Virus record (IMG/VR): IMGVR_UViG_3300003323_000777
Span: 1 to 38,460 of that record
Length of the DNA stretch: 38,460 nucleotides
Direction: 5' to 3' (one strand)
Source: a virus
Shown piece after piece: positions 3,176 to 24,256 of the stretch; within the stretch, counting starts at the first letter, position 1; each line of letters opens with the position of its first letter. The position numbers were made by a program, and so were the translations under genes. The notes beneath the pieces are model-generated. The model had not been told where the DNA came from and did not search any database. It saw only the letters and a list, made by a program, of their open reading frames with translations.

Positions 3176-3232
3176 ACCATTTCTGGTAACCTCAATTGAG
3201 GAATCATGCAAAAAACCAAAGTAATTTGTCCC

Positions 3233-7756: not shown

Positions 7757-8083
7757 ATGACTTTTGTAAAAGGACAATCTGGCAACCCTAGCGGCAGACC
7801 AAAAGTAAAGAATTTGGCTGAGATACGTGAATTGGCGCAGTCATATGCGCCTGCTGCTATTGAAGAATTGGGACGTTTAATGAAACATGCCAAAACTGAT
7901 GCAGCGAAAGTAGCAGCCATTCAAACCATTTTGGATCGTGGGTATGGAAAAGCGTTACAGACGATTGATATGACAATGAGATTGGATGAGCTTCCTGATC
8001 ATGAGATTGATAATAAGCTGAATGAAATGATGCGTAGTATGGCTATTCAATCGAATATTCATCAAGCTACTCTGATCCAGTGA
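7757..8083 (+). CDS. terminase small subunit (DUF5681-like)
   Basis: 108 residues. It begins FVKGQSGNPSGRPKVKNL, the DUF5681 opening, followed by a helical region with APAAIEELGRLM and AAKVAAIQTILDRGYGKALQ, typical of the small-terminase-like proteins preceding P22-type large terminases. It would recognise pac and load the large subunit. It overlaps the large subunit gene (GTGA). The ribosome binding site is poor, so translation may be coupled. Confidence 0.82.
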   Translation: MTFVKGQSGNPSGRPKVKNLAEIRELAQSYAPAAIEELGRLMKHAKTDAAKVAAIQTILDRGYGKALQTIDMTMRLDELPDHEIDNKLNEMMRSMAIQSNIHQATLIQ

Positions 8084-8793
8084 TAGATTTATCCACATTA
8101 AGCCGTGAACAAAAGATAGAATTTATCCATTTACTGGAAGAGAAAGAGCGCCGTAAAAAGGGAAGATTTATTGATACCCTTTATCCTGCTGAAGGTGACT
8201 TTAGACGTGAACTATATCCAAAGCATATGGAGTTCTTCGCTGCTGGTGCTGAGTATCGTGAGCGACTTTTCGTTGCTGCAAACCGTGTTGGTAAGACTTT
8301 GGCGGGAGGAGGATATGAGACGGCTTTGCATTTGACGGGGGATTATCCTGATTGGTGGATCGGAAGGCGTTTCGACAAACCTATAAATTGCTGGGTGGCA
8401 GGAGATACAAGTAAGACTACGCGGGACATTCTTCAGCTTAAGCTATTTGGTGAAACCAGTGATATTGGAACAGGCTTATTGCCGCGTTCTAATATACTAA
8501 AGACATTTGCTAAAACTGGGGTAGCAGATGCAATTGAACTTGCGCATATTCGTCATAAAACTGGTGGAAAGTCTATTGTAGCGCTTAAATCTTATGATCA
8601 GAGACGAGAGGGTTTTCAGGGTACTGAGCAAGATGTGATTTGGCTGGATGAAGAACCGCCAGAAGATGTTTATGTAGAATGCTTGCTTCGAACCATGACC
8701 AACAATGGCATTGTAATGGTTACAGCCACACCGTTGATGGGTATTACGCCTTTCATGATATCTTTCATGCCGCAATATGGAATGAACGCGTAG
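8080..8793 (+). CDS. terminase large subunit, ATPase part (ends at in-frame TAG)
   Basis: 237 residues from GTG 8080. It contains Walker A AANRVGKT (about 67-74), Walker B VIWLDEE (about 186-192) and the coupling motif VTATPL (about 214-219). It ends at TAG 8791-8793, and the very next codon opens the nuclease half in the same frame. Homologues are single proteins of about 480-500 residues running straight through this point. So this is either a true split gene, an amber readthrough, a damaged gene, or a sequencing error. ATP hydrolysis by this part powers DNA packaging. Confidence 0.9.
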   Translation: MIDLSTLSREQKIEFIHLLEEKERRKKGRFIDTLYPAEGDFRRELYPKHMEFFAAGAEYRERLFVAANRVGKTLAGGGYETALHLTGDYPDWWIGRRFDKPINCWVAGDTSKTTRDILQLKLFGETSDIGTGLLPRSNILKTFAKTGVADAIELAHIRHKTGGKSIVALKSYDQRREGFQGTEQDVIWLDEEPPEDVYVECLLRTMTNNGIVMVTATPLMGITPFMISFMPQYGMNA

Positions 8794-9534
8794 ATGGCTA
8801 AGATCGCAATTACAGCCACATGGGATGATGTGCCTCATCTTTCTCAAAAGGATAAGGATGACTTATGGGCTTCTATCCCACCATTTCAACGTGATGCGCG
8901 TTCTAAAGGTATTCCACAGTTAGGTGCTGGCGCTATTTACCCTGTGCCAGAAACAGAAATTATCATAGATGATTTCCCAATTCCTGACCATTTTGCCAGA
9001 GTTTATGCGCTTGATGTCGGATGGAATAGAACAGCTGGATTGTGGGCTGCCTATGATAAAGACAGCCAGATGACTTATTTGGTCTCTGAGCATTATCGCG
9101 GTCAGGCTGAACCCGCTGTACATGCACAATCTATTAAATCTCGTGGTGAATGGATACCGGGCGTCATTGATCCTGCTTCACGAGGACGATCTCAACATGA
9201 CGGATTTCAACTACTTAATGGTTATAGGGATTTGGGATTGGAGTTAAGTTTAGCGGATAATGCCGTGGAGGCGGGTATTTATGCAGTGTGGTCCAGATTG
9301 AGTGCCGGAAAAATCAAAGTTTTCAGAAGTCTGAGTAACTTCATGGCTGAATACAGAGTTTATCGGAGGGACGATAAGGGCAGAATCGTTAAACAGAATG
9401 ATCACCTGATGGATTGTTTGCGCTATATTATTATGTCAGGGTTGGATAAAGCAATTGCTAAGCCAATCGCACCACAACCAAAAACAGTTTATCATACGCC
9501 AAATAATATGGGCCAAGGATGGATGGGGGATTAA
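8794..9534 (+). CDS. terminase large subunit, nuclease part (same frame after TAG)
   Basis: 246 residues from ATG 8794, directly after the TAG. It starts with the inter-domain strand AITATWDDVPHLSQKDKD and continues into an RNase H-like nuclease: YALDVGW (Asp about 74), GVIDPAS (Asp about 126) and NDHLMDCLRY (Asp about 207), the three metal-binding acidic positions expected. No good ribosome binding site precedes ATG 8794, which argues for stop/restart coupling or readthrough if it is functional. The whole frame, 8080-9534, would give about 484 residues. Confidence 0.9.
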   Translation: MAKIAITATWDDVPHLSQKDKDDLWASIPPFQRDARSKGIPQLGAGAIYPVPETEIIIDDFPIPDHFARVYALDVGWNRTAGLWAAYDKDSQMTYLVSEHYRGQAEPAVHAQSIKSRGEWIPGVIDPASRGRSQHDGFQLLNGYRDLGLELSLADNAVEAGIYAVWSRLSAGKIKVFRSLSNFMAEYRVYRRDDKGRIVKQNDHLMDCLRYIIMSGLDKAIAKPIAPQPKTVYHTPNNMGQGWMGD

Positions 9535-9565: not shown

Positions 9566-9613
9566 TATATTTCCTTAGTACGTGTACGCTTTATAGCGGT
9601 CATCGCGACAGAC
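9566..9613 (+). promoter_or_regulatory. late intergenic leader, copy A (upstream of GroES-like gene)
   Basis: A -10-like TATATT (9566-9571; only a weak -35) is followed at 9580 by ACGTGT, then a hairpin CGCT-TTAT-AGCG (about 9587-9598), then GTCATCGCGAC. The same order occurs at 17348-17380 and 24054-24087, each 15-25 nt before a start codon, with the hairpin loop and the fourth base pair changing between copies. The 102-bp gap 9535-9636 holds nothing else recognisable. Confidence 0.55.
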
Positions 9614-9636
9614 AACCTAATATTTCTGGAGTTGCT

Positions 9637-9948
9637 GTGCGAGATATACGTTTGCTATGGGACCGTATTCTGGTCATTCCTGAGCAGGAATTACAATCAG
9701 ACAGCGTTATTATCCCTGACACCGTTAAAAAAGGGTTTCAAAAAGGTCGCGTAGCACATGTCGGCCCTGGTAAGCGAGAGAAGATTCGCAAAGGGGATAA
9801 ATTAGTCCTCGGTGATTTTATCCCAATGGATATTAAGGTTGGCGATTACATTTTTTATGGTCCGCATGTCGGGCAAAAACAAAAGATTAATGGCGTTGAA
9901 TATCTTGCCATGAACCAAGCGGACGTTGCGGCGATTATTGATGGCTGA
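9637..9948 (+). CDS. GroES-like co-chaperonin
   Basis: 103 residues from GTG 9637 after GGAG. It has the Cpn10 layout: LLWDRILVIPEQE, then VIIPDTVKKGFQKGRVAHVG in part, then KGDKLVLG and a C-terminal INGVEYLAMNQADVAAII. Cpn10 forms the lid of GroEL; phage versions such as T4 gp31 adapt the host chaperonin for capsid protein folding, which fits a position just upstream of portal, scaffold and coat. The mobile loop region (SDSVIIPDTVKKG) is present. It overlaps the portal gene. Confidence 0.87.
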   Translation: MRDIRLLWDRILVIPEQELQSDSVIIPDTVKKGFQKGRVAHVGPGKREKIRKGDKLVLGDFIPMDIKVGDYIFYGPHVGQKQKINGVEYLAMNQADVAAIIDG

Positions 9949-12031
9949 AGACGATCCAATCACCACACCCACAATTCCAGACGATCCTGAAACATTTCTG
10001 GGATTGGCGCTTGAGCGTTTTGAAATGGCCGAACAGGCTGAGCGTCAAATTCGTGAGAAATCTATTATTGATCTAAAATTTAGGGCTGGAGAGCAGTGGC
10101 CTGAGAACATTCAAAATAGCCGCACTGTAGATCAGCGTCCATGCCTAACGATTAACCGAATTCCGCAGTTTGTGCGTCAGGTAACGAATGATGCGCGGCA
10201 TAATAGACCGAGTGTTAAAGTTTCTCCGGTTGATGATGGCGGGGATGAGGATATCGCTAAGATTATCAATGGTATGTTTCGGCATATCGAAGTCTCAAGC
10301 AATGCGGACATCGCATATGACACTGCTGTTGATAGCCAGGTAACAATTGGCTTTGGTTATTTCCGAGTTATTACCAAATACACCGATGATGATTCTTTTG
10401 AGCAAGACCTAGTTATTCAGCGGATTAAGAATCCCTTCACTGTTTATTTTGATCCTGGATGTATTGAGCCTGATTATTCCGATGCAAACTGGGCATTCAT
10501 CGTCGATGAGATGACGAAAGAAAATTATAAGTCAGCTTATCCAGATAGTGCTATGGCTAGTTTAGAGGATTTCCAATCGGTAGGAGATCATGCGCCAGGA
10601 TGGGCAGATGGCAATTCCGTTCGTATTGCAGAGTATTTTGTTCGTGAGCATGATGAGAAATGGTTATATCAACTGGAAGATGGAACAGTAACGGATAAAT
10701 TACCTAAAGGCGAAAAACCAAAGAACAAACGGCGCGTACGTGTTCCAAAGATTACATGGTATAAAATTAACGCCATTGAAATATTGGAAAAACAAGAATG
10801 GGCAGGCCGCTGGATCCCAATTATTCCTGTGCTTGGTGATGATTTAGATATTGATGGCAAGCGTGAATTGATTGGATTAGTACGTTTTGCGCAAGATCCA
10901 CAGCGCATGCTTAATTATTGGGTTACGGCACAGACGGAAGCAATTGCATTAGCTCCTAAGGCACCTTGGTTATTGGCTGCAGGCCAAATGAAGGGATTCG
11001 AGGCGATTTGGCAGACGGCCAATATTAAGACTTCCTCACATTTGCCTTATAATCCGATCAGTATTGATGGCATTCAGGTTCCTCCTCCTCAGCGGATGAC
11101 AGCCGAACCACCAGTACAAGCTATGTCACAGGCGAGTATTGCAGCATCTCAATATCTCAAGGATGTTACAGGAATTTACGATGCTTCTTTGGGGCAAGCA
11201 GGAGCTGAAACCTCGGGGAAGGCTATTTTGGCGCGTCAAAGCCAAAGCAATATTTCAAATTTCCATTTCTTAGATAACTTAAGCCGCTCTATTAAGCATT
11301 TGGGCCGCATTCTGTTAGATCTACTTCCTAAAATTTATGATACAGAGCGGGTTGTTAGAATTATTGGAGCGGATGGCTCAGCGAGTACGGCTAAGATTAA
11401 CTCTCCAGTAAAAGATCCGATTACAGGCGCTATCATCAAAATAGAAAATGATATCACAATCGGTAAATATGATGTGGTTGTGGATGTAGGGCCGAGTTAT
11501 TCGACTAAGCGTAAAGAAAATGCTGATGCTATGATTCAAATCAGCCAAGCATACCCTGCATTGTGGCAATTGGCAGGCGATCTGATGGTTGGCGAATTAG
11601 ATTGGCCAGGCGCTGATGCGCTTGCTGAACGACTTAAAATGGCGCTTCCTCCTAATATTCAACAAGCAATTGCACAAGAAGAGCAAGGACAAGAGCCATT
11701 GCCGCCGCAAGTGCAAGCTAAGATGCAACAGGCTATGCAAATGGTTCAGCAACTTACACAAGCTCTTAATGCCGCGCATCAGAAATTGGAAAGCAAACAA
11801 ATTGAAAATCAGGCTAAATTACAAGTTGCTGCTATGGATAATCAAACAAAAATAGCAACCGCTCAAATACAGGCACACTCACAAGCAAATCTTGCAACGC
11901 TGCAGGCTGAATTAGATCACTTTGCAGGAGTAATGGATAATTATATGGGTCAGCAAAACATGCAGCAGCAAGCACAGTTACAGAATCAAAATCAACAATC
12001 ACAGAATCAAAATCAACCTTCAGCAAATTGA
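9941..12031 (+). CDS. portal protein (P22 gp1-like)
   Basis: About 696 residues from ATG 9941. It starts with an acidic N-terminus, then RQIREKSIIDLKFRAGEQWP, then RPCLTINRIPQFVRQVTNDA, typical of the P22 portal family (gp1, 725 residues). KNPFTVYFDPGCIEPDYSDA and the AETSGKAILARQ segment are further family marks. The C-terminal 120 residues are Gln-rich and helical (QQAMQMVQQLTQALNAAHQK), matching the P22 portal barrel. It forms the dodecameric DNA gate at one capsid vertex. A frame extension to TTG 9926 is possible but overlaps the GroES-like gene more. Confidence 0.93.
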   Translation: MAEDDPITTPTIPDDPETFLGLALERFEMAEQAERQIREKSIIDLKFRAGEQWPENIQNSRTVDQRPCLTINRIPQFVRQVTNDARHNRPSVKVSPVDDGGDEDIAKIINGMFRHIEVSSNADIAYDTAVDSQVTIGFGYFRVITKYTDDDSFEQDLVIQRIKNPFTVYFDPGCIEPDYSDANWAFIVDEMTKENYKSAYPDSAMASLEDFQSVGDHAPGWADGNSVRIAEYFVREHDEKWLYQLEDGTVTDKLPKGEKPKNKRRVRVPKITWYKINAIEILEKQEWAGRWIPIIPVLGDDLDIDGKRELIGLVRFAQDPQRMLNYWVTAQTEAIALAPKAPWLLAAGQMKGFEAIWQTANIKTSSHLPYNPISIDGIQVPPPQRMTAEPPVQAMSQASIAASQYLKDVTGIYDASLGQAGAETSGKAILARQSQSNISNFHFLDNLSRSIKHLGRILLDLLPKIYDTERVVRIIGADGSASTAKINSPVKDPITGAIIKIENDITIGKYDVVVDVGPSYSTKRKENADAMIQISQAYPALWQLAGDLMVGELDWPGADALAERLKMALPPNIQQAIAQEEQGQEPLPPQVQAKMQQAMQMVQQLTQALNAAHQKLESKQIENQAKLQVAAMDNQTKIATAQIQAHSQANLATLQAELDHFAGVMDNYMGQQNMQQQAQLQNQNQQSQNQNQPSAN

Positions 12032-12105
12032 ATAAATTAAAAACTATGATAGCATTTTTGTATTGCTACTGGCAGCGCAATTAAGCGCATGGGAGCTTAG
12101 ATTTA

Positions 12106-12978
12106 ATGGCAGATACTCAAAATGTTTCTACCGCTGGCGATGATGTTGGCGCACCTCTTGAGGTAAAGAAACCAGTTAGTGATTTTAGGCTTTTTGGGTC
12201 GGAAGGTGAAGAGACGGTTAATGCGAAAGCTGAAACTGCTCAGACATCTGGAGATGCTGAAGTTGATGATCCTGATGGTGAGGATGAAGCCGAACATGAA
12301 GATCGCAGTGAGCCGGTTAAGAAGCGTAGACGCGGTGGTTTTCAGAAAAAGATCTCCTTACTTGAGGCAAAAATTGCTGAATTAGAAGCAAGAAATGCAA
12401 GCAAGTCAGATCAAAATACTGAACCTGCTAAGAATGCTGAAAAACCTAAACTGGATAGTTTTGCGAGTTATGACGAATACGTTGAAGCTTTAACGGATTG
12501 GAAGGCTGATCAAGCCGCTGATCGCAAATTAAAGGAACGTGATAGTCAATCAAAGGCATCAAATGAACGGCAGGAGCTAGCGGCTAAAGTATCGAATTAC
12601 GATAAGCAGGTTGCAGAAGCTAGAGCCAAATATGATGATTTTGATGATGTTGTTTCGGATGTTTCCAATCCAAGTCCAAATATGGCGCATGCTTTGTTGG
12701 ATTCTGAAATAGGGGCTGAGGTGTCATATTATTTGGCACAGAACGCCGACCTATACGAGAAATTAAACAAACTACCGCCTGTGCAGCTTGTTAGAGAGAT
12801 TGGGCGCATTGAAGAACGTCTAATGAGTAAAACGCAAAATGCCACTGCGGAGAAACCGAAGACCACCAAGGCTCCGGCTCCAATTACGCCCGTAGGGGGA
12901 AGCAAGAAAAGCGGTGTGTTTGACCGCGAGAACTCTTCCTACGAAGAATATAAGGAATGGCGTAAGAAGCAAGCTTGA
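12106..12978 (+). CDS. scaffolding protein
   Basis: 290 residues, strongly charged and largely helical. An acidic stretch (VDDPDGEDEAEHEDR) precedes a basic patch (VKKRRRGGFQKK) and a coiled coil (ISLLEAKIAELEARNA). The middle SYDEYVEALTDWKADQA is common in scaffold proteins of these podoviruses. Its position between portal and coat is that of P22 gene 8. The scaffold would guide procapsid assembly and leave before packaging. The 74-bp upstream gap holds two small hairpins but no clear promoter. Confidence 0.85.
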   Translation: MADTQNVSTAGDDVGAPLEVKKPVSDFRLFGSEGEETVNAKAETAQTSGDAEVDDPDGEDEAEHEDRSEPVKKRRRGGFQKKISLLEAKIAELEARNASKSDQNTEPAKNAEKPKLDSFASYDEYVEALTDWKADQAADRKLKERDSQSKASNERQELAAKVSNYDKQVAEARAKYDDFDDVVSDVSNPSPNMAHALLDSEIGAEVSYYLAQNADLYEKLNKLPPVQLVREIGRIEERLMSKTQNATAEKPKTTKAPAPITPVGGSKKSGVFDRENSSYEEYKEWRKKQA

Positions 12979-13015
12979 CCTCGGGGGATAACAACAACCC
13001 TTTAGGAGGCCAATA

Positions 13016-14221
13016 ATGGCAAATACTTTACTTAATATTTCCATGATCACCAATGAAGCATTGATGGTCTTGGAGAACAATCTCACTTTTACTAAAAAAG
13101 TAAATCGTGAATATGATAACGCTTTTGGTCGTACAGAAGCTCAGATCGGTACGACTTTAAACATCCGTAAGCCTGCCCGCTATACCCGTACAATGGGTCC
13201 AACGCTTCAGGTTCAGTCAACCACTGAAACATATGTGCCATTGGTTCTGAATAGCTGGTATCAACAATCTGTCTCTTTCACAACGGAAGAGATGACATTG
13301 AATATCGCAGAGTTTAGTGATCGTATTCTGAAGCCTGAAATTGCGCAGCTGGCGAACAATATTGACTACGACGGTCTTCAATTGGCGTCAGATGTTTACA
13401 ATTCAGTTGGTACCCCAGGATCAACTCCTAGTTCATTGCTTACTTATTTGAACGCTGGTGTTCTTTTGGACAACAACGCGACCCCAATGGACGGACAACG
13501 TTCGATCGTTGTGAACCCATTGGCACAAGCGACCATTGTGAATGCGCTGACGACCATCTTCAATCCTACCAAAACTATTAGTGAGCAATATCAAAAAGGT
13601 AGCATGGGAGAAGCTATTGGTTTTGACTGGAATATGGATCAAAACGTTTCGATGCATACAGTTGGTACGTATGGTGGTACTCCATTGGTAAATGGTGCTG
13701 GCCAAACTGGGTCTACACTTGTAACGGATGGCTGGACTGCAACGACCACTTCTTTGAACGTTGGCGATATTTTTACTCTTGCAGGTGTGTTTGCAGTTAA
13801 CCCACAGAACTATCAATCAACAGGTTCATTGCAACAATTTGTTGTAACGGCACAAACGACGACAGATGGCTCTGGTAACTCTACGATTAGCATTAGCCCC
13901 GCGATCACAACGAGTGGTGCATTCCAGACAGTGACAAATTCTCCGGCAGACAATGCGGCGATCACTGTTGTCGGTGCGTCTGGAACTGTTACACCTCAAA
14001 ACCTAGCCTTCCATAAGGACGCATTCACCTTCGCAACCGTTGATTTGTTTGTGCCAGGTGGTGTGGACATGGCAAAACGTGTTTCTTCCAAGAAACTTAA
14101 CATGTCTATGCGTTGTGTTCGTGCTTACGACATCAACAATGATCGTCTGCCAATGCGTCTCGATCTTCTGGGTGGTTGGAAAACCATTCGTGCGGAAACG
14201 GCTTGCCGGATCCAAGGCTAA
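13016..14221 (+). CDS. major capsid protein (P22 gp5-like)
   Basis: 401 residues, near the 430 of P22 coat. The N-terminus LNISMITNEALMVLENNLTF and the next segment IGTTLNIRKPARYT are P22_CoatProtein marks. The middle GGTPLVNGAGQTGS region corresponds to the I-domain insertion, and the end MRLDLLGGWKTIRAETACRI is the family's usual last strand. A strong TTTAGGAGG precedes the ATG. The local GC content is higher than in neighbouring genes, as expected for a highly expressed structural gene. Confidence 0.94.
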   Translation: MANTLLNISMITNEALMVLENNLTFTKKVNREYDNAFGRTEAQIGTTLNIRKPARYTRTMGPTLQVQSTTETYVPLVLNSWYQQSVSFTTEEMTLNIAEFSDRILKPEIAQLANNIDYDGLQLASDVYNSVGTPGSTPSSLLTYLNAGVLLDNNATPMDGQRSIVVNPLAQATIVNALTTIFNPTKTISEQYQKGSMGEAIGFDWNMDQNVSMHTVGTYGGTPLVNGAGQTGSTLVTDGWTATTTSLNVGDIFTLAGVFAVNPQNYQSTGSLQQFVVTAQTTTDGSGNSTISISPAITTSGAFQTVTNSPADNAAITVVGASGTVTPQNLAFHKDAFTFATVDLFVPGGVDMAKRVSSKKLNMSMRCVRAYDINNDRLPMRLDLLGGWKTIRAETACRIQG

Positions 14222-14244
14222 TTTAACTATTTAGGAGAGATATC

Positions 14245-14805
14245 ATGACTGATACAAGCACACCAGCAATTCACGTTCAGAATATTACCACTAATCTTAC
14301 CGGTAATGCGCCTGATGGAGGATTTCTCGGGTTTAATGATAACACTACTGCGTCTATCGCGCAGATCAATGCTGTTTGCTATTCTGCAGGGCGTGTTCCT
14401 TCGGTAACAGCAGCAACTCTTGCTGTAACTGCTGCAGCGAACGGGGAACTTTATACGGTTCTCAATCGTGCGGCAGGAACGGCTGTAACGCTTCCAGCTG
14501 CTACCGGTTCAGGTCGTATTTATCGGTTCATCATTGGAACCACCATCACCTCTAATACCACTGTTATTCAAACCGCTACCACTGGTTCTGGGGATGTAAT
14601 GGACGGTATTGCAGTAGGCGTAGCGTCAGCATTGGTTGGCTTTGAAACTGCATCCAATACTAACACAATCACTTTCAATGGCACCACTACGGGCGGCATC
14701 GTTGGAACGCGGGTTGAATTGATAGACTACGCAAGCGGTCATTGGGGCGTGCAAGTTCGCTCTAATGGCTCTGGCACAGGCGCAACGCCATTCAGCCACG
14801 TTTAA
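14245..14805 (+). CDS. head decoration-like protein
   Basis: 186 residues, Thr/Ala/Gly-rich and beta-strand rich, with VTAAANGELYTVLNRAAG, VTLPAATGSGRIYRF and FIIGTTITSN. This pattern recurs in surface proteins of phages and in tail-fibre modules. Its place immediately after the coat gene (TTTAGGAGAG ribosome binding site) and before a terminator-like hairpin suggests a capsid decoration protein made at high level together with coat. No specific family is recognised. Confidence 0.65.
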   Translation: MTDTSTPAIHVQNITTNLTGNAPDGGFLGFNDNTTASIAQINAVCYSAGRVPSVTAATLAVTAAANGELYTVLNRAAGTAVTLPAATGSGRIYRFIIGTTITSNTTVIQTATTGSGDVMDGIAVGVASALVGFETASNTNTITFNGTTTGGIVGTRVELIDYASGHWGVQVRSNGSGTGATPFSHV

Positions 14806-14813
14806 CCTTAACA

Positions 14814-14844
14814 GGGGAGAGGATTTCGATCTTCTCCCCATTTT
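14814..14844 (+). terminator. terminator-like hairpin after coat/decoration genes
   Basis: A 10-bp stem (14814-14823 with 14830-14839, one G-T pair) encloses the loop TTTCGA and is followed by ATTTT. The T-run is short, so it is probably a partial terminator that lowers expression of downstream tail genes relative to coat, or an mRNA 3'-end stabiliser. Confidence 0.6.
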
Positions 14845-14855
14845 GCAGGTAAGAC

Positions 14856-15566
14856 ATGGCAACTTATGTACGTGATATTATTACTGCATCTTTGCAGGAT
14901 TTAGGTGTGATCGCATCGGACGAGGTTCCGAGTTCTGCGGATTCGGATGTATGCCTCAAATCTCTTAATAGGCTAATACAATCATGGCAAAATGATAGCC
15001 TGATGATTTATAGTATATTGAACCAAATTTTCCCATTTGTATCTGGTCAAGGTGTTTATACGATTGGTCCTGGGGGGAATTTTAATACACAGCGCCCAGT
15101 AGAAATTGTTGATGCATACGTAAGAGATCAATTTGGCAATGATTACCCAATGTATATCTCGAACCAAGAAGAATATAGCGAAATTATCACCAAATATACT
15201 CAGTCTCCCTTACCGACGGTGATGTATCCCGATGGCAATTATCCTTTAGTAAATCTTACTTTTTGGCCCATCCCAGACGGGGGTGGATATTCAGCTAATC
15301 TATGGATGTGGCAGAAGATACAAGAATTTACTTCCATTAATGACACTGTTGTATTGCCCCCAGGTTATGAAAGAGCATTTGAATTTAATTTGGCTGTGGA
15401 AGTAGCTCCAAAGTTTGGCAAGACAGTTTCTCAAGACATATTAAGAATTGCTACGGATAGCAAGGTTGAGATTGAGCGCACAAATTACGTGGATAATCAA
15501 ATTAGATTTGATCCAACCTTAACAGAGCGCGGACGTGTATTTAACTGGTTGTCTGGTGGGTATTAA
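14856..15566 (+). CDS. head-to-tail adaptor (P22 gp4-like)
   Basis: 236 residues (P22 gp4 has 166; this subfamily is longer). The N-terminus VRDIITASLQDLGVIASDE, then CLKSLNRLIQSWQ, and the later RPVEIVDAYVRD match the P22_Tail-4 family. LPPGYERAFEFNLAVEVAP is a second shared block. It would attach under the portal ring after packaging. It is followed 3 bp later by the gp10-like gene. Confidence 0.88.
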   Translation: MATYVRDIITASLQDLGVIASDEVPSSADSDVCLKSLNRLIQSWQNDSLMIYSILNQIFPFVSGQGVYTIGPGGNFNTQRPVEIVDAYVRDQFGNDYPMYISNQEEYSEIITKYTQSPLPTVMYPDGNYPLVNLTFWPIPDGGGYSANLWMWQKIQEFTSINDTVVLPPGYERAFEFNLAVEVAPKFGKTVSQDILRIATDSKVEIERTNYVDNQIRFDPTLTERGRVFNWLSGGY

Positions 15567-15569
15567 CCC

Positions 15570-17015
15570 ATGGTGGAAAAGTATTTTCCATTTGTAGGGC
15601 CGAGCTATGAAGAACGCGTCATTAACTTTGACGCACAGCGTTCTGTGAATTTATATCCCATAAAAAGTATGACAGGTGATAGTAAAACGCCTTTTATGCT
15701 TGGAAGTACACCGGGATTAAAGGTATTTTGTGATCTAGTAAGTGGGCCTATTAAAGGATGCTATACAGTTAAAGGACGCTCATTCTTTGTAACTGGAAAA
15801 TATCTATTTGAAGTTTTTGTAGATGGAACGTTTACAAATTTGGGGTCAGTTGTTTTTTCAAACTCCTTAGTTTCTATCACTGATAATGGATTACAGATTT
15901 GCATCGTTGGGGGAGATAATGGTTATGTATTTACTTTGGCTACCAATGAGTTAGTCCAGATAACAAGCGATGGTTGGAATGGTGCTGATACGGTTACGTT
16001 TCTGGATGGATATGGTATTTTCAATTGGCCCGGTACTTCTAAATATTATATTAGCGCACTATACGATTTTACAACTTTTGATCCCACAATGGTATCAAGC
16101 GTCGCGAGTTCAACAAATGATGTGGTTGCGGTGGTGGCACTTCACCAAAACGTATGGGTTCTAGGTACTCAGACAGTCGAGATTGAATATGATTCTGGAA
16201 ATGTTAACTTTCCATTTCAGCGTATTCAGGGAGCATTTATTGAATACGGATGCATTGCGCCATATTCTGTAGTCCGTGCAGCAAACACTCTATTTTGGTT
16301 AGGGCAGGATCAAACAGGCCAAGGAAGTGTTTGGATGGCTCAAGGATATGAGCCCCAAAAGATCTCTACCGATGCAATCGAGTTTTATATTCAGCAATTT
16401 GTTCATAATCTGGATGGCGCGTCCGGATGGTCTTATCAAGAAGAGGGACATTTCTTTTATGTACTTAATATACCAGGTGCATCTTCCACTCTTGTATATG
16501 ATGTAACATTGGGTCAATGGCATGAAAGAGCTTATTTTAATGCATTAACGGGTAAGTATGAGCGTCAGCGTCAGAATTGTCAGACATTTAATTTCAATCA
16601 ACAGCTTATTGGTGATTACAATAGTGGTAAAATTTACGTGCAAAGTCTGAATTACTATGATGATGCGGGTGATTTGATACGTCGTATGCGTGTAGCCCCA
16701 CATATTACGAGCAATCTTGATTATGTTTTTTATAATTCGTTTCAGGTTGATATGGAAACTGGGGTAGGCGTGGATGGTATTGATGGTTCTCAAAACACGG
16801 ATCCTCAACTTATGATGAGGTATTCAAATGATGGTGGTTATACTTGGTCAAATGAGATTTGGATGAGTATGGGAAAAATAGGCCAATATAAATGGCGTGC
16901 CCGAACGACTCGTATTGGAAGAGCACGAGACAGGGTGTTTGAAGTATCTTGTATGTCAAATGTGCCAGTTAATTTGCTCGGTGCAGTTATTGATGCAGAA
17001 CCAGGAATATCTTAA
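15570..17015 (+). CDS. packaged-DNA stabilisation / tail hub protein (P22 gp10-like)
   Basis: 481 residues, close to the 472 of P22 gp10. It opens with FPFVGPSYEERVINFDAQRS and VNLYP, the Phage_stabilise signature, and continues as a beta-propeller-like body with FWLGQDQTGQGSVW and a C-terminal RWSNDGGYTWS-like segment (RYSNDGGYTWSNEIW). gp10 closes the portal channel below gp4. TAATG overlap with the next gene. Confidence 0.92.
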   Translation: MVEKYFPFVGPSYEERVINFDAQRSVNLYPIKSMTGDSKTPFMLGSTPGLKVFCDLVSGPIKGCYTVKGRSFFVTGKYLFEVFVDGTFTNLGSVVFSNSLVSITDNGLQICIVGGDNGYVFTLATNELVQITSDGWNGADTVTFLDGYGIFNWPGTSKYYISALYDFTTFDPTMVSSVASSTNDVVAVVALHQNVWVLGTQTVEIEYDSGNVNFPFQRIQGAFIEYGCIAPYSVVRAANTLFWLGQDQTGQGSVWMAQGYEPQKISTDAIEFYIQQFVHNLDGASGWSYQEEGHFFYVLNIPGASSTLVYDVTLGQWHERAYFNALTGKYERQRQNCQTFNFNQQLIGDYNSGKIYVQSLNYYDDAGDLIRRMRVAPHITSNLDYVFYNSFQVDMETGVGVDGIDGSQNTDPQLMMRYSNDGGYTWSNEIWMSMGKIGQYKWRARTTRIGRARDRVFEVSCMSNVPVNLLGAVIDAEPGIS

Positions 17016-17311
17016 TGACCAATATTTTATCTCAGCCACCTGTAAAAAGTCCAGTTACGCTTCCCACAGGATCAATCGCCCCTGTTTGGAATCAATGGTT
17101 CCAAATTATATTTAGTATTCTAGGTGGACAAGGTTTAGCTCAGTTAGAATCATTAACGATCACATCTAATCAGATTATTATTCAAAACTCTCAAACTCCT
17201 GCGACTTCTTCTTCGCCTGGAGAAGAGGGCACGATTTGTTGGGATACCAATTATGTATATGTTTGTATCGCCGAAAATACATGGAAACGGATAGGAATCA
17301 GTACTTGGTGA
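17015..17311 (+). CDS. small tail-associated protein (98 aa)
   Basis: 98 residues. It has VKSPVTLPTGSIAPVWNQWF and a C-terminus GTICWDTNYVYVCIAENTWK that recurs in phage fibre and needle proteins. It is translationally coupled to the gp10-like gene and occupies roughly the position of P22 gene 26 (tail needle), but lacks a needle's long coiled coil. Role unresolved. Confidence 0.75.
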   Translation: MTNILSQPPVKSPVTLPTGSIAPVWNQWFQIIFSILGGQGLAQLESLTITSNQIIIQNSQTPATSSSPGEEGTICWDTNYVYVCIAENTWKRIGISTW

Positions 17312-17380
17312 TTGACTTATAAAGGTAAATTATTTATTATTTGGATAACGTGTCACGCTTCGGCGGCTATCGCGGCAAAC
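17312..17380 (+). promoter_or_regulatory. late intergenic promoter and leader, copy B (upstream of GNAT gene)
   Basis: TTGACT (17312-17317) and TATTAT (17335-17340), 17 bp apart, form a good sigma70 promoter. The predicted start is at about 17347, where the shared leader begins: ACGTGT, a hairpin CGC-TTCG-GCG (UUCG tetraloop), then GCTATCGCGGC. It ends 16 nt before ATG 17397. This is the clearest promoter of the three copies. Confidence 0.65.
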
Positions 17381-17396
17381 ATCTGGATTGCAAGCG

Positions 17397-17897
17397 ATGC
17401 TGACCTATAAAGTAGAAAAATGGACTGACACTGTTGATGATAGCCGTTGGCTTTGGCCACTTCATTATGAAGAAGCAAGTGTCGATAAGGGCGTTGTTCC
17501 TCTCGAAGTAAATGAAGAAGAATTCAGGGCCATGGATCAAATTGGCCAGATGCACTGTGTTACTGTAAGAGATACAGAAACATGTGGTGAATGTGGTAAA
17601 TGCGATAATTCTGAAAAAGGTAAAATTGTAGGATATTGCTGGGCAGTTTTGCGACCACATCTTCATTATAAATCTATGTTATGCGCATATTTCGATGCTT
17701 ATTTTCTTCATCCAGATTATCGCGATGGGTTCAATGGCGTAAAATTATTCCAGGTGATGGAAGAAACGCTAGCAAAGATTGGCGTTCAAAAGATGTTCAC
17801 CTTTACAAAGCTTCATAATCATAAAGGTCCTGTATTTGAATATTTGGGATGGAAACCTGTTGAAACAACATATGCTAAACGTATTGGAGCTCGGTGA
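17397..17897 (+). CDS. GNAT-like N-acetyltransferase
   Basis: About 166 residues. YCWAVLRPHLHYKSMLCAYFDAYFLHPDYRD is the central strand pair of phage GNAT proteins (only part quoted by motif: AYFLHP), followed by GVKLFQVMEETLAKIGVQKMF and EYLGWKPVE. A CxxCxxC-like TETCGECGKCD insertion (about 60-70) may bind metal. Such GNATs are often encoded next to tail and ejection genes; the substrate is not known. ATG 17397 is preferred over TTG 17388. It overlaps the next gene (TGATG). Confidence 0.82.
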   Translation: MLTYKVEKWTDTVDDSRWLWPLHYEEASVDKGVVPLEVNEEEFRAMDQIGQMHCVTVRDTETCGECGKCDNSEKGKIVGYCWAVLRPHLHYKSMLCAYFDAYFLHPDYRDGFNGVKLFQVMEETLAKIGVQKMFTFTKLHNHKGPVFEYLGWKPVETTYAKRIGAR

Positions 17898-18661
17898 TGG
17901 GTGGAATTGTAGGAGCTGTCGCAGGTCCAGTTATCGGCGGAATATTCGGAAATAGTGCTGCGAATACACAGGCAGATGCAGCCAATAATGCATCCGATCT
18001 ACAAAGATATATTTTTGATCTTCAAAACTCTCAACAAGCTCCTTATCGGGAGGCAGGTTATGGCGGTCTTTCAAATTTAGCCTATCTGCTTGGTACTGGG
18101 CCGCAAGGAGGATTACAAGCACCCGATCAAAATGGAAATCAAACGACCTACGTACCTAATACTTCTTTGGGTGCATATGGGAGTTTAGCACAGCCATTTA
18201 CTTTGGATCAGTTCCATGAAGATCCGGGTTATCAATTTATGCTTCAGCAAGGGCAGCAAGCTCTAAAAGCTAGTCAGGCTGCCAATGGAACACTATTGTC
18301 GGGAGCTGGACTAAAAGGACTTGATGCGTATACACAAGGACTTGCATCGCAAGAATATCAACAGGCCTTTAATAATTATAATACTAATCAAACCAATCTT
18401 TATAATCGACTAGCGGGATTATCTGGAACGGGACAAACAGCGAATGCACAAACTGGAGCTGCTGCACAGAATTATGGAAACCAAGCTGGGAATTATATTA
18501 CTCAAGCTGGAAGTGCGAATGCAGCCGGTCAATTGGCGACGGGAACCGGATTATCCAATTTAGCAGCTAATTTAGGAAGTGCGTGGAGTACAGGCTTAAA
18601 TACGCCTGCTCAAGGAATGGCGAGTTCTTTTAACGGCAGTCCTATCAATTGGAATAGCTGA
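17897..18661 (+). CDS. ejection (internal virion) protein 1
   Basis: 254 residues. The N-terminal GGIVGAVAGPVIGGIFGNSA is a hydrophobic Gly-rich helix, followed by QAPYREAGYGGLSNLAYLL, DQFHEDPGYQFMLQQGQQAL and NGTLLSGAGLKGLDAY, a series common to proteins of podovirus ejection modules. The first of three adjacent genes of this kind, in the place of P22 genes 7, 20 and 16. It would leave the capsid with the DNA and help form the channel across the host envelope. Confidence 0.8.
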   Translation: MGGIVGAVAGPVIGGIFGNSAANTQADAANNASDLQRYIFDLQNSQQAPYREAGYGGLSNLAYLLGTGPQGGLQAPDQNGNQTTYVPNTSLGAYGSLAQPFTLDQFHEDPGYQFMLQQGQQALKASQAANGTLLSGAGLKGLDAYTQGLASQEYQQAFNNYNTNQTNLYNRLAGLSGTGQTANAQTGAAAQNYGNQAGNYITQAGSANAAGQLATGTGLSNLAANLGSAWSTGLNTPAQGMASSFNGSPINWNS

Positions 18662-20040
18662 TGGCGCTTGATCCTACCATCCTTGCAATGACAGCTAATC
18701 CGCAAGCAGCGGCATTGGAGAATGCACAGCGTCAGGCGCAGATACAAAATCTTCAACAGGTAAATCAAGCCCAACCTCAGTTACTACAAAATCAAATTCA
18801 GCAGGGTCAGTTAGCTAATCAGGAAGCACAACAAACAAATGCCGTTCGCCCTCAGTTATTACAAAATCAAGTTACGTCAGGACAACTTGCCAACCAACAA
18901 TCTGCTTTAGTAAATGCATATGCACAGCATAATGCAGTAGGGCAATTATTGAGTAGTGCAGTTGATGAACCGTCATATCAACATACAAAACAAATTGCTG
19001 CTCAAATGGGAATTGATACGAGTCAATTGCCACAAAATTTTGATCCTAATTTTATTGCACAGGCTAAGCAAAATTGGCTAACGACTGATCAACAATTAAA
19101 ACAGCAAGAAATGAATATCCAATCCGGAGCTTATCTCTATGGAAATTCGTCTCCGAATTCTGGTAATATTCCATCTGGATCTGGAAATCCACAAGTACAA
19201 CAATCGCCTTCTAATTCGATAACAGACGTATTCCCTAATTTGAATCCTGCATTTGCAGCTCGTGCACAAGCAATTATTGAAGGACGAGATCAGCTAAGCA
19301 ATCGTGAGGCAGGAACGCCCATTGGCATTCAACTGAAGAATATCATTAATCAGGTTGATCCAAGCTTTGATTTTACAAATCCAACAGCCCGAGCAAAAGC
19401 TGCACAGGATTACGCACCTTCTGGTAAATCAGGACAGTCTATTAACGCTATTAATACCGTTCTTGGGCATTTGCAGACTCTACAGGAGCAAGGCCATGCA
19501 CTTAATAATGGCCCAATTCCTGCGTTAAATGCAGTTCAGAACTATGGATTGGAGCAACTAGGAGATGCAAGACCAGTTGCTTTTGATGCAACTAAAAAAG
19601 CAGTTGCTGATGAACTAACACGTGTATGGAGGCAATCAGGTGGTGCTCAATCTGATATTGAAGAAAAATTAAAATCTTTAAGCAATTCGCAATCTCCCGC
19701 TCAACTTGATGCTGTTATTAAAGATTTTGGGGATCTACTTTCATCTAAGCTAGATTCTCTAACCCAAAGTTATTCAAATACAATGGGTAATAAAGTTGCT
19801 CCTAAAGGGATTTTACAGCCCGATAAAGCAGCATTCCTTCAGAAATTGGGAGTAGATGTCAGTAATATTCCGCTGATGACTGGCACAGGGAAAGGTGCAT
19901 TACCAACATCACCGCCCAATAATGCTTTCCCTGATGTAAACTCATTGAAACCAGGAACAATTGTTAACGGTCAATTATTTTTAGGGGGAGACCCATCCCA
20001 ACAATCTAGTTGGAAGCAAGCAACGCAGGGAGGCAAATAA
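18661..20040 (+). CDS. ejection (internal virion) protein 2
   Basis: 459 residues. The N-terminal region is helical and Gln-rich with an internal duplication: QPQLLQNQIQQGQLANQ at about 39-55 and RPQLLQNQVTSGQLANQ at about 63-79. The middle has RAKAAQDYAPSGKSGQSINA and INTVLGHLQTLQEQ, a pattern that recurs in second-position ejection proteins. Start and stop are coupled to both neighbours (TGATG and TAATG). Function inferred from context. Confidence 0.78.
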   Translation: MALDPTILAMTANPQAAALENAQRQAQIQNLQQVNQAQPQLLQNQIQQGQLANQEAQQTNAVRPQLLQNQVTSGQLANQQSALVNAYAQHNAVGQLLSSAVDEPSYQHTKQIAAQMGIDTSQLPQNFDPNFIAQAKQNWLTTDQQLKQQEMNIQSGAYLYGNSSPNSGNIPSGSGNPQVQQSPSNSITDVFPNLNPAFAARAQAIIEGRDQLSNREAGTPIGIQLKNIINQVDPSFDFTNPTARAKAAQDYAPSGKSGQSINAINTVLGHLQTLQEQGHALNNGPIPALNAVQNYGLEQLGDARPVAFDATKKAVADELTRVWRQSGGAQSDIEEKLKSLSNSQSPAQLDAVIKDFGDLLSSKLDSLTQSYSNTMGNKVAPKGILQPDKAAFLQKLGVDVSNIPLMTGTGKGALPTSPPNNAFPDVNSLKPGTIVNGQLFLGGDPSQQSSWKQATQGGK

Positions 20041-22079
20041 TGGCCGAAGCCGCAATGCAACCTTGGGATTATTACGCTTCTCAAAAGCCAGACGTACAGC
20101 CTGTAAACTTTGATGCCTTGGAAAAAGAAAATGGGCTGCCGTCAGGGTTATTGAATGCAGTAATGCAACAAGAATCCGGTGGTAATCCAAATGCAGTTTC
20201 TTCTAAAGGGGCCATGGGGCCATTCCAGCTTATGCAGGGTACAGCAAAGCAATTTGGAGTAACTGATCCAACAGATATTAATCAGGCGGCACCGGCAGCG
20301 GCCAAATATCTAGGTCAACTTAAGGATAAATTTGGGGGAAATCTAAACTCTGCATTAGCTGCTTATAATTGGGGTCCAGGAAATGTACAAAAGTATGGTT
20401 TATCCAGATTGCCGCCTGAAACAGCCAATTATGTTGCGAAGATTGGTGGTCAGTTCGCAGACCAGATTCAGCCATCGTCTCAGCCTAATTCGCCTCAACC
20501 GGCGGCGCAGAAAGCATCAAATATACAGCCATGGGATTATTATGCCTCCCTTAAAAATCAAACGGCAAATACTAACGAACCTTCTGATACGAAACAGCCG
20601 CCTACAGGTTCAGATTTAGGGGCTAAACCAGCATTTTATGGTGGGATTGTATCTGGCGCAATTCCATTTGGTAATAAAATTACAGCAGGAATAGGCGCTT
20701 TAACGGCTTCAGGTCTCCAGGGCTTAAATCAGGCGATTGGCAATGATGTACAAAACCCACAAACGATTGGCCAATATTATGATCAAATTCGTCAGAACCA
20801 AGCAGCTACTGAAGCCGCTCACCCGGCTGCAAATTTAGCTGGAGTGGGGACGGGCGCTGTGGCAACATTGCCTATATTTGGCGGTATAGGAGATGCACTT
20901 GCAGCAGGAAAATTCACGGCCCCCCTCGTTAATGCTCTTCGGCCTACTGAGGTGGCGCAAGATGCAGGGGCACTCGTCAAAGCAGGTAATTTGGCAGCCA
21001 ATATGGTTAAAGGCGGCCTTTCAGCTGCCCCAGTGGGGGCAATATATGGAGCAGGTCTTGCACCAGAAGGTCAAGAACTGCAGGGCGCAAGCAAGGGGGC
21101 TTTATTTAGTGGTGCTGTCGGCGCTGCCATTCCTGCTGCGAGTGCTGGTTTTTCAGCATTAAATAATGCACTTGGAAAAGATATTATACCTGCAGCATCT
21201 GAGTTGCGTGCTACAGCCGGAAAATTATATCAACAAGCTTCTGATAATGGCGGTATTCTAACACCAGAATTCTCTAATAACTTCATTGATGATATTAGCA
21301 AGTTAAAACCTCAGACTGAATTAGGGCAAGCCGTCACAGGTGAAACACCATTTACGCAAATGGTTGATAAGTTACAGGTAATAAAAAATAAACCTATCAC
21401 CTTAGATACAGCGCAAGAGATTGATGAAGCATTGGGTGATGCCATAGATTCTCAAATAGAAAATGGTCAATTGAATAAACAAGGTAAAAAACTACTTGAT
21501 CTTCAAACATCATTTAGAAATTCAATTGATAACGCTAATTCAGATCAGATAGTTGGAGGATCGGAGGGGTTTGATGCCCTCAAGGAGGCTCGAAAATATT
21601 GGGCCGCCAGTCGTCGTATGGATGATGTTGAACGAATTATTACAAGAGCACAATATTCTGATAATCCAGCCACTGCAATTAAATCTGGATTTAGAACCAT
21701 TTTAAGCAATCCCTCTCGGCTTCGTGGATTTTCTCAAGATGAAATTCAAGCAATGCAAAACGCCGCATCTGGAGGACCAATCGCTGAAACATTAAAAACT
21801 CTTGGAAGCGGCCTTATTCGAGTTTTTGCACCCTTCTCAGGAGCAGGATTGGTAGGAGATGCAGCTATCGCTGCGGGTTCAATGGCATCCAAAGATTTAT
21901 CGACGAAACTTGCCTTAAGTAAGGCATCTGATGTTGCTCAAGAAGTGGCTAATAGGGTTCAGCCAGTAGTTCGGCAACCATTATTAACCTGGCAAAATAC
22001 CTTAAAACTGCCCCCAGAAAAAGCCCAACAAATACTTTCTCAAATCGCTGCTCAGAAAGCAGCTGGAGGAAATCCATGA
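20040..22079 (+). CDS. ejection protein 3 with lytic transglycosylase domain
   Basis: About 679 residues from ATG 20040 (TAATG). An SLT domain lies near the N-terminus: LLNAVMQQESGGNPNAVS carries the catalytic Glu (about 45), SKGAMGPFQLMQGTA is motif II, and LAAYNWGPGNV motif III. QPWDYYAS occurs twice (about 8 and 164), bracketing this domain. Several Gly/Ala-rich hydrophobic segments follow (about 200-360), suited to membrane insertion. It should cut peptidoglycan locally so that DNA can enter, as T7 gp16 does. Confidence 0.88.
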   Translation: MAEAAMQPWDYYASQKPDVQPVNFDALEKENGLPSGLLNAVMQQESGGNPNAVSSKGAMGPFQLMQGTAKQFGVTDPTDINQAAPAAAKYLGQLKDKFGGNLNSALAAYNWGPGNVQKYGLSRLPPETANYVAKIGGQFADQIQPSSQPNSPQPAAQKASNIQPWDYYASLKNQTANTNEPSDTKQPPTGSDLGAKPAFYGGIVSGAIPFGNKITAGIGALTASGLQGLNQAIGNDVQNPQTIGQYYDQIRQNQAATEAAHPAANLAGVGTGAVATLPIFGGIGDALAAGKFTAPLVNALRPTEVAQDAGALVKAGNLAANMVKGGLSAAPVGAIYGAGLAPEGQELQGASKGALFSGAVGAAIPAASAGFSALNNALGKDIIPAASELRATAGKLYQQASDNGGILTPEFSNNFIDDISKLKPQTELGQAVTGETPFTQMVDKLQVIKNKPITLDTAQEIDEALGDAIDSQIENGQLNKQGKKLLDLQTSFRNSIDNANSDQIVGGSEGFDALKEARKYWAASRRMDDVERIITRAQYSDNPATAIKSGFRTILSNPSRLRGFSQDEIQAMQNAASGGPIAETLKTLGSGLIRVFAPFSGAGLVGDAAIAAGSMASKDLSTKLALSKASDVAQEVANRVQPVVRQPLLTWQNTLKLPPEKAQQILSQIAAQKAAGGNP

Positions 22080-23710
22080 CAACTAAATATCTTTCTCCAA
22101 ATCCCAAATTCCAAGCATTTGATTCCGATGGAAATCCATTAGTTGGTGGTAAACTTTATACCTATGGGGCAGGAGGGTCTACTCCTTTGGCCACTTATAC
22201 GGATTCCACAGGCGCTAGTGCAAATTCTAATCCTATTATTCTAGATGCGAATGGCGAAGCCAACGTTTGGTTGAGTAATGCTGCTTATAAATTTACATTG
22301 AAAGATGCAAACGATGTTTTGCAATGGACTGTTGATAACATTATTGGCGTAGGATTTGTTCAGGCTAATATTGTTTATTGGGGAGCCACAAGTTCAGGCT
22401 CGGCAAATGCACAAACAATCATTACAAATCCTCAATTCACTACTTATCAGACACCTTTGATCATTTCATTTATTTCTGGGTTTAATAATACGGGTCCGAC
22501 CACAATTAATGCAAATAGCTTAGGAGCGGTTAATATTTTAAAGGAAAGCACAAGTGGTCCAGTACCACTTACAGGTGGTGAGATTATAGAAGGAAATATC
22601 TATCAACTCTCATTTGATGGAACGGATTTCCAAATTTTAAACTCTCCGTCTAATTTTCCAGGTGCAGAAACTACAGTTGCAAGTGCCACTACGACGAGCA
22701 TTTCAAATCATAATACAAATGCTATTGCGATCAGCGGCACAACTACCATTACTTCATTCGGGACATCTGGAGATTCAACAAGCGCTTTTTATTTTTTAAG
22801 GTTCACGGGAAGTCTAACCTTAACGAATAATGCTACCTCTTTAATATTGCCTGGAGGCGCAAATATTGTGACGCAAGCCGGTGATACGGCGATTGTTCAG
22901 GATCTAGGAAGCAATAATTGGAAGGTAACGCAATACACTCGCGTAAATGGATCTCCCATTTTGCCGTCTGGAGTACAGGGGCAATTTAAGAATTTGAAAA
23001 CTGCGTGGGCTAGTAATACCACATTAACAATTACAGCAGATCAGATTACTTTATATGCCCCTACATTGCCTGCATGGCTTACGGTTTCTACAGTTAATCT
23101 TACAAATACTATTTCGACGTCAGGGGCGAATGGTTTAGACACTGGGAGTGTAGCAAATTCTACGTGGTATTATTCTTATGTGATTTATAATCCTACCACT
23201 TTAACGACTGCGTCTTTGATATCCTTAAGTTCTACTGCTCCTACATTGCCAAGTGGTTATACATATTTTGCAAGGGTTGGGTCATTTATTACTGATGGAA
23301 GTGCGCATATTGTTGGTTTTACACAAAAGGGAAAATCAATCCAATATATGGTCGGAAGCAATGCCTCTCTACCACAAGCTGCATCTGGTCCGAGCGGCAG
23401 TGTAAGTGTTCCTACATGGACAGCAGTTTCTATTTCTAGTTTCATACCTCCTACAACTTCTAAAATAACAGTCATGTTATTCAGCGGTAGTACTAACTCT
23501 AACGCAATGGCTGCACCAAATAATAATTATGGTGCGGCTGGAAGCACAACAAATCCTCCTCCATTATCATTAGCTGGAACGCAATCAGCCGGTATTTATA
23601 GTAATAATATTATGGGGACATTTGTATGCGAGCAAACATCTAATTTTTACTATGCATCCACTGCGGCTACATCTGGCTTATATGTGGTCAATTATGAAGA
23701 TAACATATAG
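22076..23710 (+). CDS. tail fibre / spike with head-binding N-terminus
   Basis: 544 residues. The N-terminal NPKFQAFDSDGNPLVGGKLY, then TYTDSTGASANSNPIILDAN and AYKFTLKDANDVLQWTVDNI in order, are those of podovirus fibre virion-binding domains. The rest is a Thr/Ser/Asn-rich beta-structure with ISGTTTITSFGTSGDSTSAF repeats and a C-terminal GSVSVPTWTAVSIS domain. It overlaps the upstream gene (ATGA) and is followed by a small chaperone-like gene. The C-terminal part likely contacts the host surface. Confidence 0.85.
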   Translation: MTTKYLSPNPKFQAFDSDGNPLVGGKLYTYGAGGSTPLATYTDSTGASANSNPIILDANGEANVWLSNAAYKFTLKDANDVLQWTVDNIIGVGFVQANIVYWGATSSGSANAQTIITNPQFTTYQTPLIISFISGFNNTGPTTINANSLGAVNILKESTSGPVPLTGGEIIEGNIYQLSFDGTDFQILNSPSNFPGAETTVASATTTSISNHNTNAIAISGTTTITSFGTSGDSTSAFYFLRFTGSLTLTNNATSLILPGGANIVTQAGDTAIVQDLGSNNWKVTQYTRVNGSPILPSGVQGQFKNLKTAWASNTTLTITADQITLYAPTLPAWLTVSTVNLTNTISTSGANGLDTGSVANSTWYYSYVIYNPTTLTTASLISLSSTAPTLPSGYTYFARVGSFITDGSAHIVGFTQKGKSIQYMVGSNASLPQAASGPSGSVSVPTWTAVSISSFIPPTTSKITVMLFSGSTNSNAMAAPNNNYGAAGSTTNPPPLSLAGTQSAGIYSNNIMGTFVCEQTSNFYYASTAATSGLYVVNYEDNI

Positions 23711-23718
23711 GAGGAAAC

Positions 23719-24006
23719 ATGTTTTGTTATTTTAATAATGGCCTATCTTTTAAATCAGTCGAATCTGATTATGTAGCGCAATCAGGGGAAGTCTTGTTCT
23801 CTTCATATGCGACTTCTGAAGAGCTGAAATTAGCTTTTCCAGAATATAATTCCGCTTCCAGTATCTTATCTATAAAACTTCAAATTATAGCTCTAGAGGA
23901 TATGCAAACCGATAGAAGAATTAGAGAAGCAATTCTTGGCACTGATAATGGATGGCTCGCAAATCTTAACTCACAGATTGCCTCCCTTAGATCCCAATTA
24001 TCATAA
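23719..24006 (+). CDS. small tail-fibre chaperone-like protein (95 aa)
   Basis: 95 residues opening with CYFNNGLSFKSVESDY, then QSGEVLFSSYATSEEL and AFPEY, the same opening layout as small tail fibre assembly proteins (YYF....., GE..., ...LraaFP.Y). The C-terminal half is helical (RRIREAILGTDNGWLANLNS). It lies directly behind the fibre gene with GGAGG. Chaperone role inferred from position and pattern. Confidence 0.65.
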   Translation: MFCYFNNGLSFKSVESDYVAQSGEVLFSSYATSEELKLAFPEYNSASSILSIKLQIIALEDMQTDRRIREAILGTDNGWLANLNSQIASLRSQLS

Positions 24007-24013
24007 GAATCAT

Positions 24014-24087
24014 TTGACAGGGTAAACATCATAGGATAATTTTTATAAATCTGACGTGTAACGCATATTTGCGGCAATCGCGCTGAC
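24014..24087 (+). promoter_or_regulatory. late intergenic promoter and leader, copy C
   Basis: TTGACA (24014-24019) with GATAAT (24035-24040) at a short 15-bp spacing. The shared leader follows at 24054: ACGTGT, hairpin CGCA-TATT-TGCG (about 24062-24073), then GCAATCGCG. Compared with copy A the fourth stem pair is A-T instead of T-A, a compensatory change. It ends 22 nt before ATG 24110. Confidence 0.55.
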
Positions 24088-24109
24088 TCAACAAGTTGGG
24101 ACTGCGACG

Positions 24110-24256
24110 ATGCCACTAAAGAAAACACCATCAAAAAAAGCATTTTCATATAACGTTAAAACAGAAATGGATGCGGGAAAACCGCAGAAACAGGCTGTTG
24201 CAATTGCTTACAACGTAAGGCGGAAAGCCGCTGATAAAAAAGGCGGAAAGAAATGA
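24110..24256 (+). CDS. small basic phage protein (48 aa)
   Basis: The protein MPLKKTPSKKAFSYNVKTEM continues DAGKPQKQAVAIAYNV and ends Lys-rich. Near-identical small proteins (KK.SSK.A...N...E...GKP.KQA.AIAY) occur in many phages in tail or lysis regions; their function is unknown. The conserved pattern supports a real gene despite its size. ATGA overlap with the next gene. Confidence 0.85.
   Translation: MPLKKTPSKKAFSYNVKTEMDAGKPQKQAVAIAYNVRRKAADKKGGKK

Follow-up and report, generated by a model that had tools for sequence, protein, structure and literature searches.

In translational attenuators of the ermC type, segments of the mRNA pair as A:B and C:D or, alternatively, adopt a pairing that frees the start codon, and in translational riboswitches a conserved domain shares one strand with a variable expression platform. 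Promoter-early-stem-loop (PeSL) cassettes, in which a promoter and a stem-loop are repeated between genes, are known from T4-type phages. In the T4 genes e, soc, 49 and I-TevI, the Shine-Dalgarno sequence or the AUG is sequestered in a helix, and transcripts of gene e that originate from a late promoter lack the 5′-strand of this helix (PMC3014915). Cluster K mycobacteriophages carry phage-specific repeats, the start-associated sequences (SAS/ESAS), beside the sites at which translation of several unrelated genes begins; these repeats are partly accompanied by inverted repeats and are absent from the host chromosome. SAS comprises 13 bp, each genome carrying 11–19 copies in its non-structural half, and the inverted repeats are 17 bp in length (PMC3203893).

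Here, we analysed a complete virus record (38,460 bases, GC content 42.8%), which as a whole is referred to as the window, and describe an element that is found upstream of three of its genes. Its pairings compete, and its conserved domain has one strand in common with a variable platform, which is reminiscent of ermC-type attenuators and riboswitches; unlike in these systems, no leader peptide is seen here and the conserved domain comprises only 27–29 nucleotides. Unlike in the PeSL cassettes, no shared promoter was found for the three leaders, and the stem-loop covers the start codon. As in the four T4 genes and in mobE of phage Aeh1, a stable hairpin within a phage operon has the Shine-Dalgarno sequence and/or the start codon in its 3′-arm, but unlike in the T4 start-region hairpins as described, a conserved 5′-element is common to unrelated genes (PMC3014915). 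Moreover, an internal late promoter serves T4 gene e, and its counterpart in the present leaders is hypothetical. With SAS/ESAS the element shares the property of a phage-specific repeat at the starts of several unrelated genes; unlike these, it is present in three copies in the late half of the genome, and the start codon itself lies within the hairpin. Comparison of the 13-bp SAS consensus GGGATAGGAGCCC (PMC3203893) with the three leaders revealed no homology, and the element differs from both the T4 start-region hairpins and the Cluster K SAS in sequence and layout. Hiding of a start codon by a hairpin is already known in phages; as far as we found, the new part is one shared, predicted switch before three genes, and the literature as far as searched contains no shared start-codon switch copied before three phage genes.

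The phage and its three-copy element

The phage is temperate and encodes an S24-peptidase repressor (2432–3262) and a tyrosine-type integrase, the latter called from tblastn matches annotated as integrases; P22-like portal, scaffold and GcrA-like proteins are likewise present. The portal protein is at most about 46% identical to phage records, about 48% identical to viral contigs, and at most 41% identical to proteins of 385 genomes drawn from the class to which an Acetobacteraceae genome belongs, and the best identity of the integrase among the searched phages and plasmids is 34%. In addition to the repressor, a stand-alone LexA DNA-binding domain of 77 amino acids without the peptidase part is encoded at 4616–4849, and the early region contains a gene for a hexapeptide-repeat acyltransferase (1804–2472), possibly a cargo gene. 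Two adjoining GcrA-like genes (6862–7540), about 75% identical over 95 nucleotides, apparently arose by tandem duplication. The reading frame of the large terminase subunit (8080–9534) is broken by an in-frame TAG (8791–8793) immediately followed by an ATG, so that the ATPase half and the nuclease half would be made as two proteins, unless one base is wrong. Since 12 other called genes end in TAG, a genome-wide reassignment of this codon is unlikely. A 12-bp tandem repeat (ATCCCACGCAGC and variants) is found at both ends of the record (1–84 and 38436–38460), which suggests a circular genome cut within this repeat.

The element reads ACGTGT-N0/1-ACGC-N4/6-GCGG-NN-ATCGCG and occurs three times on the plus strand: as ACGTGT ACGC TTTATA GCGG TC ATCGCG at 9580–9607 (copy 1), as ACGTGT C ACGC TTCG GCGG CT ATCGCG at 17348–17374 (copy 2, with a stem one pair shorter) and as ACGTGT A ACGC ATATTT GCGG CA ATCGCG at 24054–24082 (copy 3). 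The layout and positions given in a preliminary description of this DNA, comprising ACGTGT, a hairpin and GCGG-NN-ATCGCG in three intergenic gaps, were thus reproduced. The combined pattern is matched three times in the window and never in 100 dinucleotide shuffles. As it was drawn up after the copies had been seen, two fairer tests were added. First, the best two-block motif shared three ways among all intergenic gaps scored 47.8, compared with 34.3 ± 1.3 and a maximum of 40.2 in 100 gap shuffles. Second, a covariance model for which only copies 1 and 3 were used recovered the held-out copy 2 with 27.2 bits (E 2e-5). The runner-up in the window reached merely 13.5 bits (E 0.27), and we therefore count three copies and no fourth. 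The Smith-Waterman triple score was far less decisive (10.5, equal to the shuffle maximum of 10.5), pairwise alignment of gaps being too blunt for significance. The motif score and the recovery of the held-out copy rule out a chance origin, and the shared pattern lies far above what shuffled sequence yields, as the earlier claim had demanded.

Copy 1 precedes the gene for a GroES-like co-chaperonin (Cpn10; 9637–9948, plus strand; Pfam PF00166, E 1e-15; PHROG 3188), copy 2 that for a GNAT acetyltransferase (17397–17897, plus strand; PF00583, E 2e-4; PHROG 1249) and copy 3 that for a basic protein of 48 amino acids without known function (24110–24256, plus strand; PHROG 2423). The three genes had been regarded as separately promoted inserts, a view that found no support: GroES and GNAT lie where related podoviruses usually have them, for example Xanthomonas phage PBR31, where GroES precedes terminase and portal and an acetyltransferase occupies the GNAT position. 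Because both reside at their usual places, they are ordinary members rather than foreign inserts, and the 48-aa gene alone is displaced. In most of the related contigs that were read, where the portal is only about 45% identical, a homologue of the 48-aa protein (about 50–84% identical over the matched part) is encoded immediately before the portal gene; in several relatives the homologue is directly followed by GroES, and GroES directly precedes the portal gene. In the phage studied here, the 48-aa gene lies far downstream of the portal gene. The leader is absent at these genes in the related contigs read, and the novelty rests with the leaders, not with the GroES and GNAT genes.

The search was extended beyond the window. 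Exact and relaxed pattern scans yielded 3 and 41 matches in viral contigs and 24 in genomes; the matches inspected look like chance in GC-rich coding DNA, one per contig and none placed alike, and were rejected as true copies. The best matches in a scan of the 385 genomes and 27 relative loci with model R1 sit in long open frames. The leader was not found in those of the nearest relatives by capsid protein (viral contigs, 57–64% identical) whose sequence was readable, and Rfam gave nothing at gathering score in the window and, for the three leaders, no credible family up to an E of 10. A leader peptide was dismissed as well, as there is no conserved frame and the insertion of zero or one nucleotide after ACGTGT shifts the register.

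Predicted hairpins upstream of and over the start codons

Within the element, ACGC and GCG form hairpin P1 with a loop of four nucleotides, UUAU, UUCG and UAUU in copies 1, 2 and 3, respectively, and the fourth pair changes from U-A to A-U between copies; loops, stems and this compensatory change are as originally described. The loop keeps this length although the spacing between CGC and GCG ranges from 4 to 6 nucleotides, and that of copy 2 is the very stable cUUCGg loop; an RNA hairpin accounts for this better than a DNA dyad does. P1 is in turn closed by P0, the pairing of CGUG (of ACGUGU) with CGCG (of AUCGCG), resulting in the upstream domain of 27–29 nucleotides. Taken alone, this domain does not exceed shuffled sequence in stability (z −0.9, 0.1 and −0.6) and is weaker than the hairpin described below.

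When the leaders were folded through the start codon, all three formed a second, longer hairpin, P2, of 15–18 pairs. Its 5′-arm consists of the conserved GGNNAUCGCG and 10–12 variable bases (fewer in copy 2), and its 3′-arm takes in two or three codons in addition to the ribosome-binding site and the start codon. On the plus strand, P2 spans 9599–9645 in copy 1 (arms 9599–9619 and 9627–9645, containing GGAG and the GTG start at 9637–9639), 17362–17405 in copy 2 (arms 17362–17378 and 17388–17405, containing the ATG at 17397–17399) and 24073–24114 in copy 3 (arms 24073–24091 and 24096–24114, containing the ATG at 24110–24112). The pairs are GUC/GAU, UCGC/GCGA, ACAG/CUGU and CAAC/GUUG in copy 1; GGCGGC/GCUG-CC, AUCGC/GCGAU and GCAA/UUGC, with the U of NN bulged, in copy 2; and GGCA/UGCC, UCG/CGA, CGC/GCG and a top helix CUCAAC/GUUGGG in copy 3. 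Hence, the sequence of the inner and outer helices and of the NN positions varies by copy and pairing is kept in each, though with three copies the covariation is thin. The idea of a conserved leader RNA with competing pairings, repeated three times in one phage, proved right; its strongest structure, P2, had been missed, as the earlier reading stopped before the start codons.

The energies of the start regions (−38 to +15) place the three leaders at ranks 1–3 of 55 gene starts (−18.6, −17.7 and −17.1 kcal/mol), and so do their shuffle z-scores (−3.3, −3.3 and −2.7); the odds that three leaders fill these ranks by chance are 1 in 26,235. In the folding model, no more than 2% of the ensemble leaves the start codon unpaired in any of the three leaders; the codon is thus predicted to be sequestered. 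When halves were exchanged, the native 5′-half was best for each of the three 3′-halves, and the native 3′-half was best for one of the three 5′-halves, a foreign one folding slightly better in the other two rows. When each copy was scored as a duplex with every one of the 55 start regions, its own came out at rank 2, 2 and 1 for copies 1, 2 and 3, and an unrelated start region (3999) stood above the native one for copies 1 and 2. Opening of the region from −12 to +5 costs 14.1, 11.3 and 12.9 kcal/mol, and 8.7, 7.8 and 6.9 kcal/mol when AUCGCG is held elsewhere. Taken together, the computation shows all three leaders to possess the shared block as well as P1, and a P2 that buries the start codon.

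A sequestered start in front of a heat-shock-type gene, the GroES-like one, might call to mind an RNA thermometer as in ROSE or fourU leaders. This reading is hardly credible: two of the three genes do not encode chaperones, no Rfam thermometer matches, and it was discarded when the modelled pairing turned out to be nearly constant from 15 to 50 °C, with the start region still paired up to 70 °C.

The distribution of conserved bases also bears on whether the leaders have a function at all. One 5′-UTR could have been copied before three genes by recombination and kept without a regulatory role, given that the copies are alike in the leader only, that relatives are devoid of such a leader at these genes, and that the 48-aa gene has moved, so recombination did occur. 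We nevertheless consider such a relic very unlikely, since the conserved bases are the pairing ones and the diverged flanking arms still pair with their own gene starts.

Promoters and the upstream boundary of the element

According to the preliminary description, the three copies share a promoter-like −10 sequence. This claim found no support: homology in pairwise local alignments starts exactly at ACGTGT with nothing common further upstream, no shared −35/−10 boxes were found in these alignments, two of the three promoter calls are poor, and recognisable boxes that score as a promoter are present at copy 2 only. The latter, TTGACT-17-TATTAT (17312–17340, plus strand), is the sole listed sigma-70-like promoter adjoining a copy and, overall, such sites are no more than chance, as the scan of the region gave 44 sites versus 50 expected. 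The corresponding model, in which three sigma-70 promoters and a shared initial transcribed hairpin or protein-binding DNA site would govern transcription or mRNA stability with P2 being incidental, can invoke TATATT, TATTAT and GATAAT/TATAAA just upstream of the copies, and the copy 2 promoter matches at 10 of 12 positions. Given that nothing is conserved upstream of ACGTGT, that promoter-like sites are no commoner than in shuffles, that the dyad spacing varies by 2 nucleotides and that P2 ranks 1–3 of 55, we judge this model quite unlikely.

The main rival follows the logic of T4 gene e. Here, the block would be a DNA promoter, late or phage-specific, with ACGTGT and ATCGCG as boxes 15–17 nucleotides apart; read-through mRNA would be silent via P2, and mRNA begun just after the block, without the 5′-arm, would be translated. 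The spacing of the boxes (16, 15 and 17 nucleotides in copies 1, 2 and 3) and the presence of P2 in all three leaders are in line with this reading. To our knowledge, no promoter of the ACGTGT/ATCGCG-box type has been described; ATCGCG is poorly suited to melting, and the putative spacer has eight further invariant bases that form P1, with its fourth pair compensated. No sigma-70 promoter is listed between the AUCGCG arm and the start codon of any of the three genes, in a scan that covers the sigma-70 type only. The T4 e late-promoter transcripts devoid of the 5′-strand provide a precedent (PMC3014915), and we regard this reading, with the block itself as a promoter, as unlikely.

A candidate translational switch in the late operon

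The reading we prefer, to which we assign an even chance, is that the three copies are the 5′-halves of leaders that control translation, with P2 as the OFF hairpin and AUCGCG shared with an upstream domain able to release it. In the mRNA, GGNNAUCGCG would pair with the downstream region that holds the ribosome-binding site, start codon and first codons, and P2 would by default keep the GroES-like, GNAT and 48-aa genes untranslated within the late operon. In the alternative state, the domain of P1 closed by CGUG:CGCG would take the same AUCGCG strand and thereby free the start codon. A trans-acting factor, most likely an RNA-binding protein of phage or host origin that recognises the invariant ACGUGU/internal-loop region, may favour this domain, and its binding would switch on all three genes together. 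From the folding we infer the repression by P2 in vivo, the upstream domain as the ON state, and the factor. Since P2 is more stable than the putative ON domain, OFF would be the default state, and a factor must therefore be assumed. The two partners of AUCGCG, the start region and the CGUG of ACGUGU, would explain why AUCGCG and ACGUGU are invariant while the remainder of P2 drifts.

It is a more doubtful proposition that the leaders represent a small (27–29 nucleotides) new class of RNA switch gated by a trans factor or a ligand, which occurs thrice in one phage and jointly activates the co-chaperonin, acetyltransferase and small basic protein genes, independently of the surrounding virion genes. 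The late genes of phages are mostly pictured as a single long transcript whose translation ratios are fixed. Were a repeated leader to lock the non-virion genes alone within the late operon, this would constitute a post-transcriptional regulon inside a phage. Moreover, the leader links the phage co-chaperonin, the acetyltransferase and an unusually well-conserved 48-aa protein, and thereby renders a shared role of the three testable.
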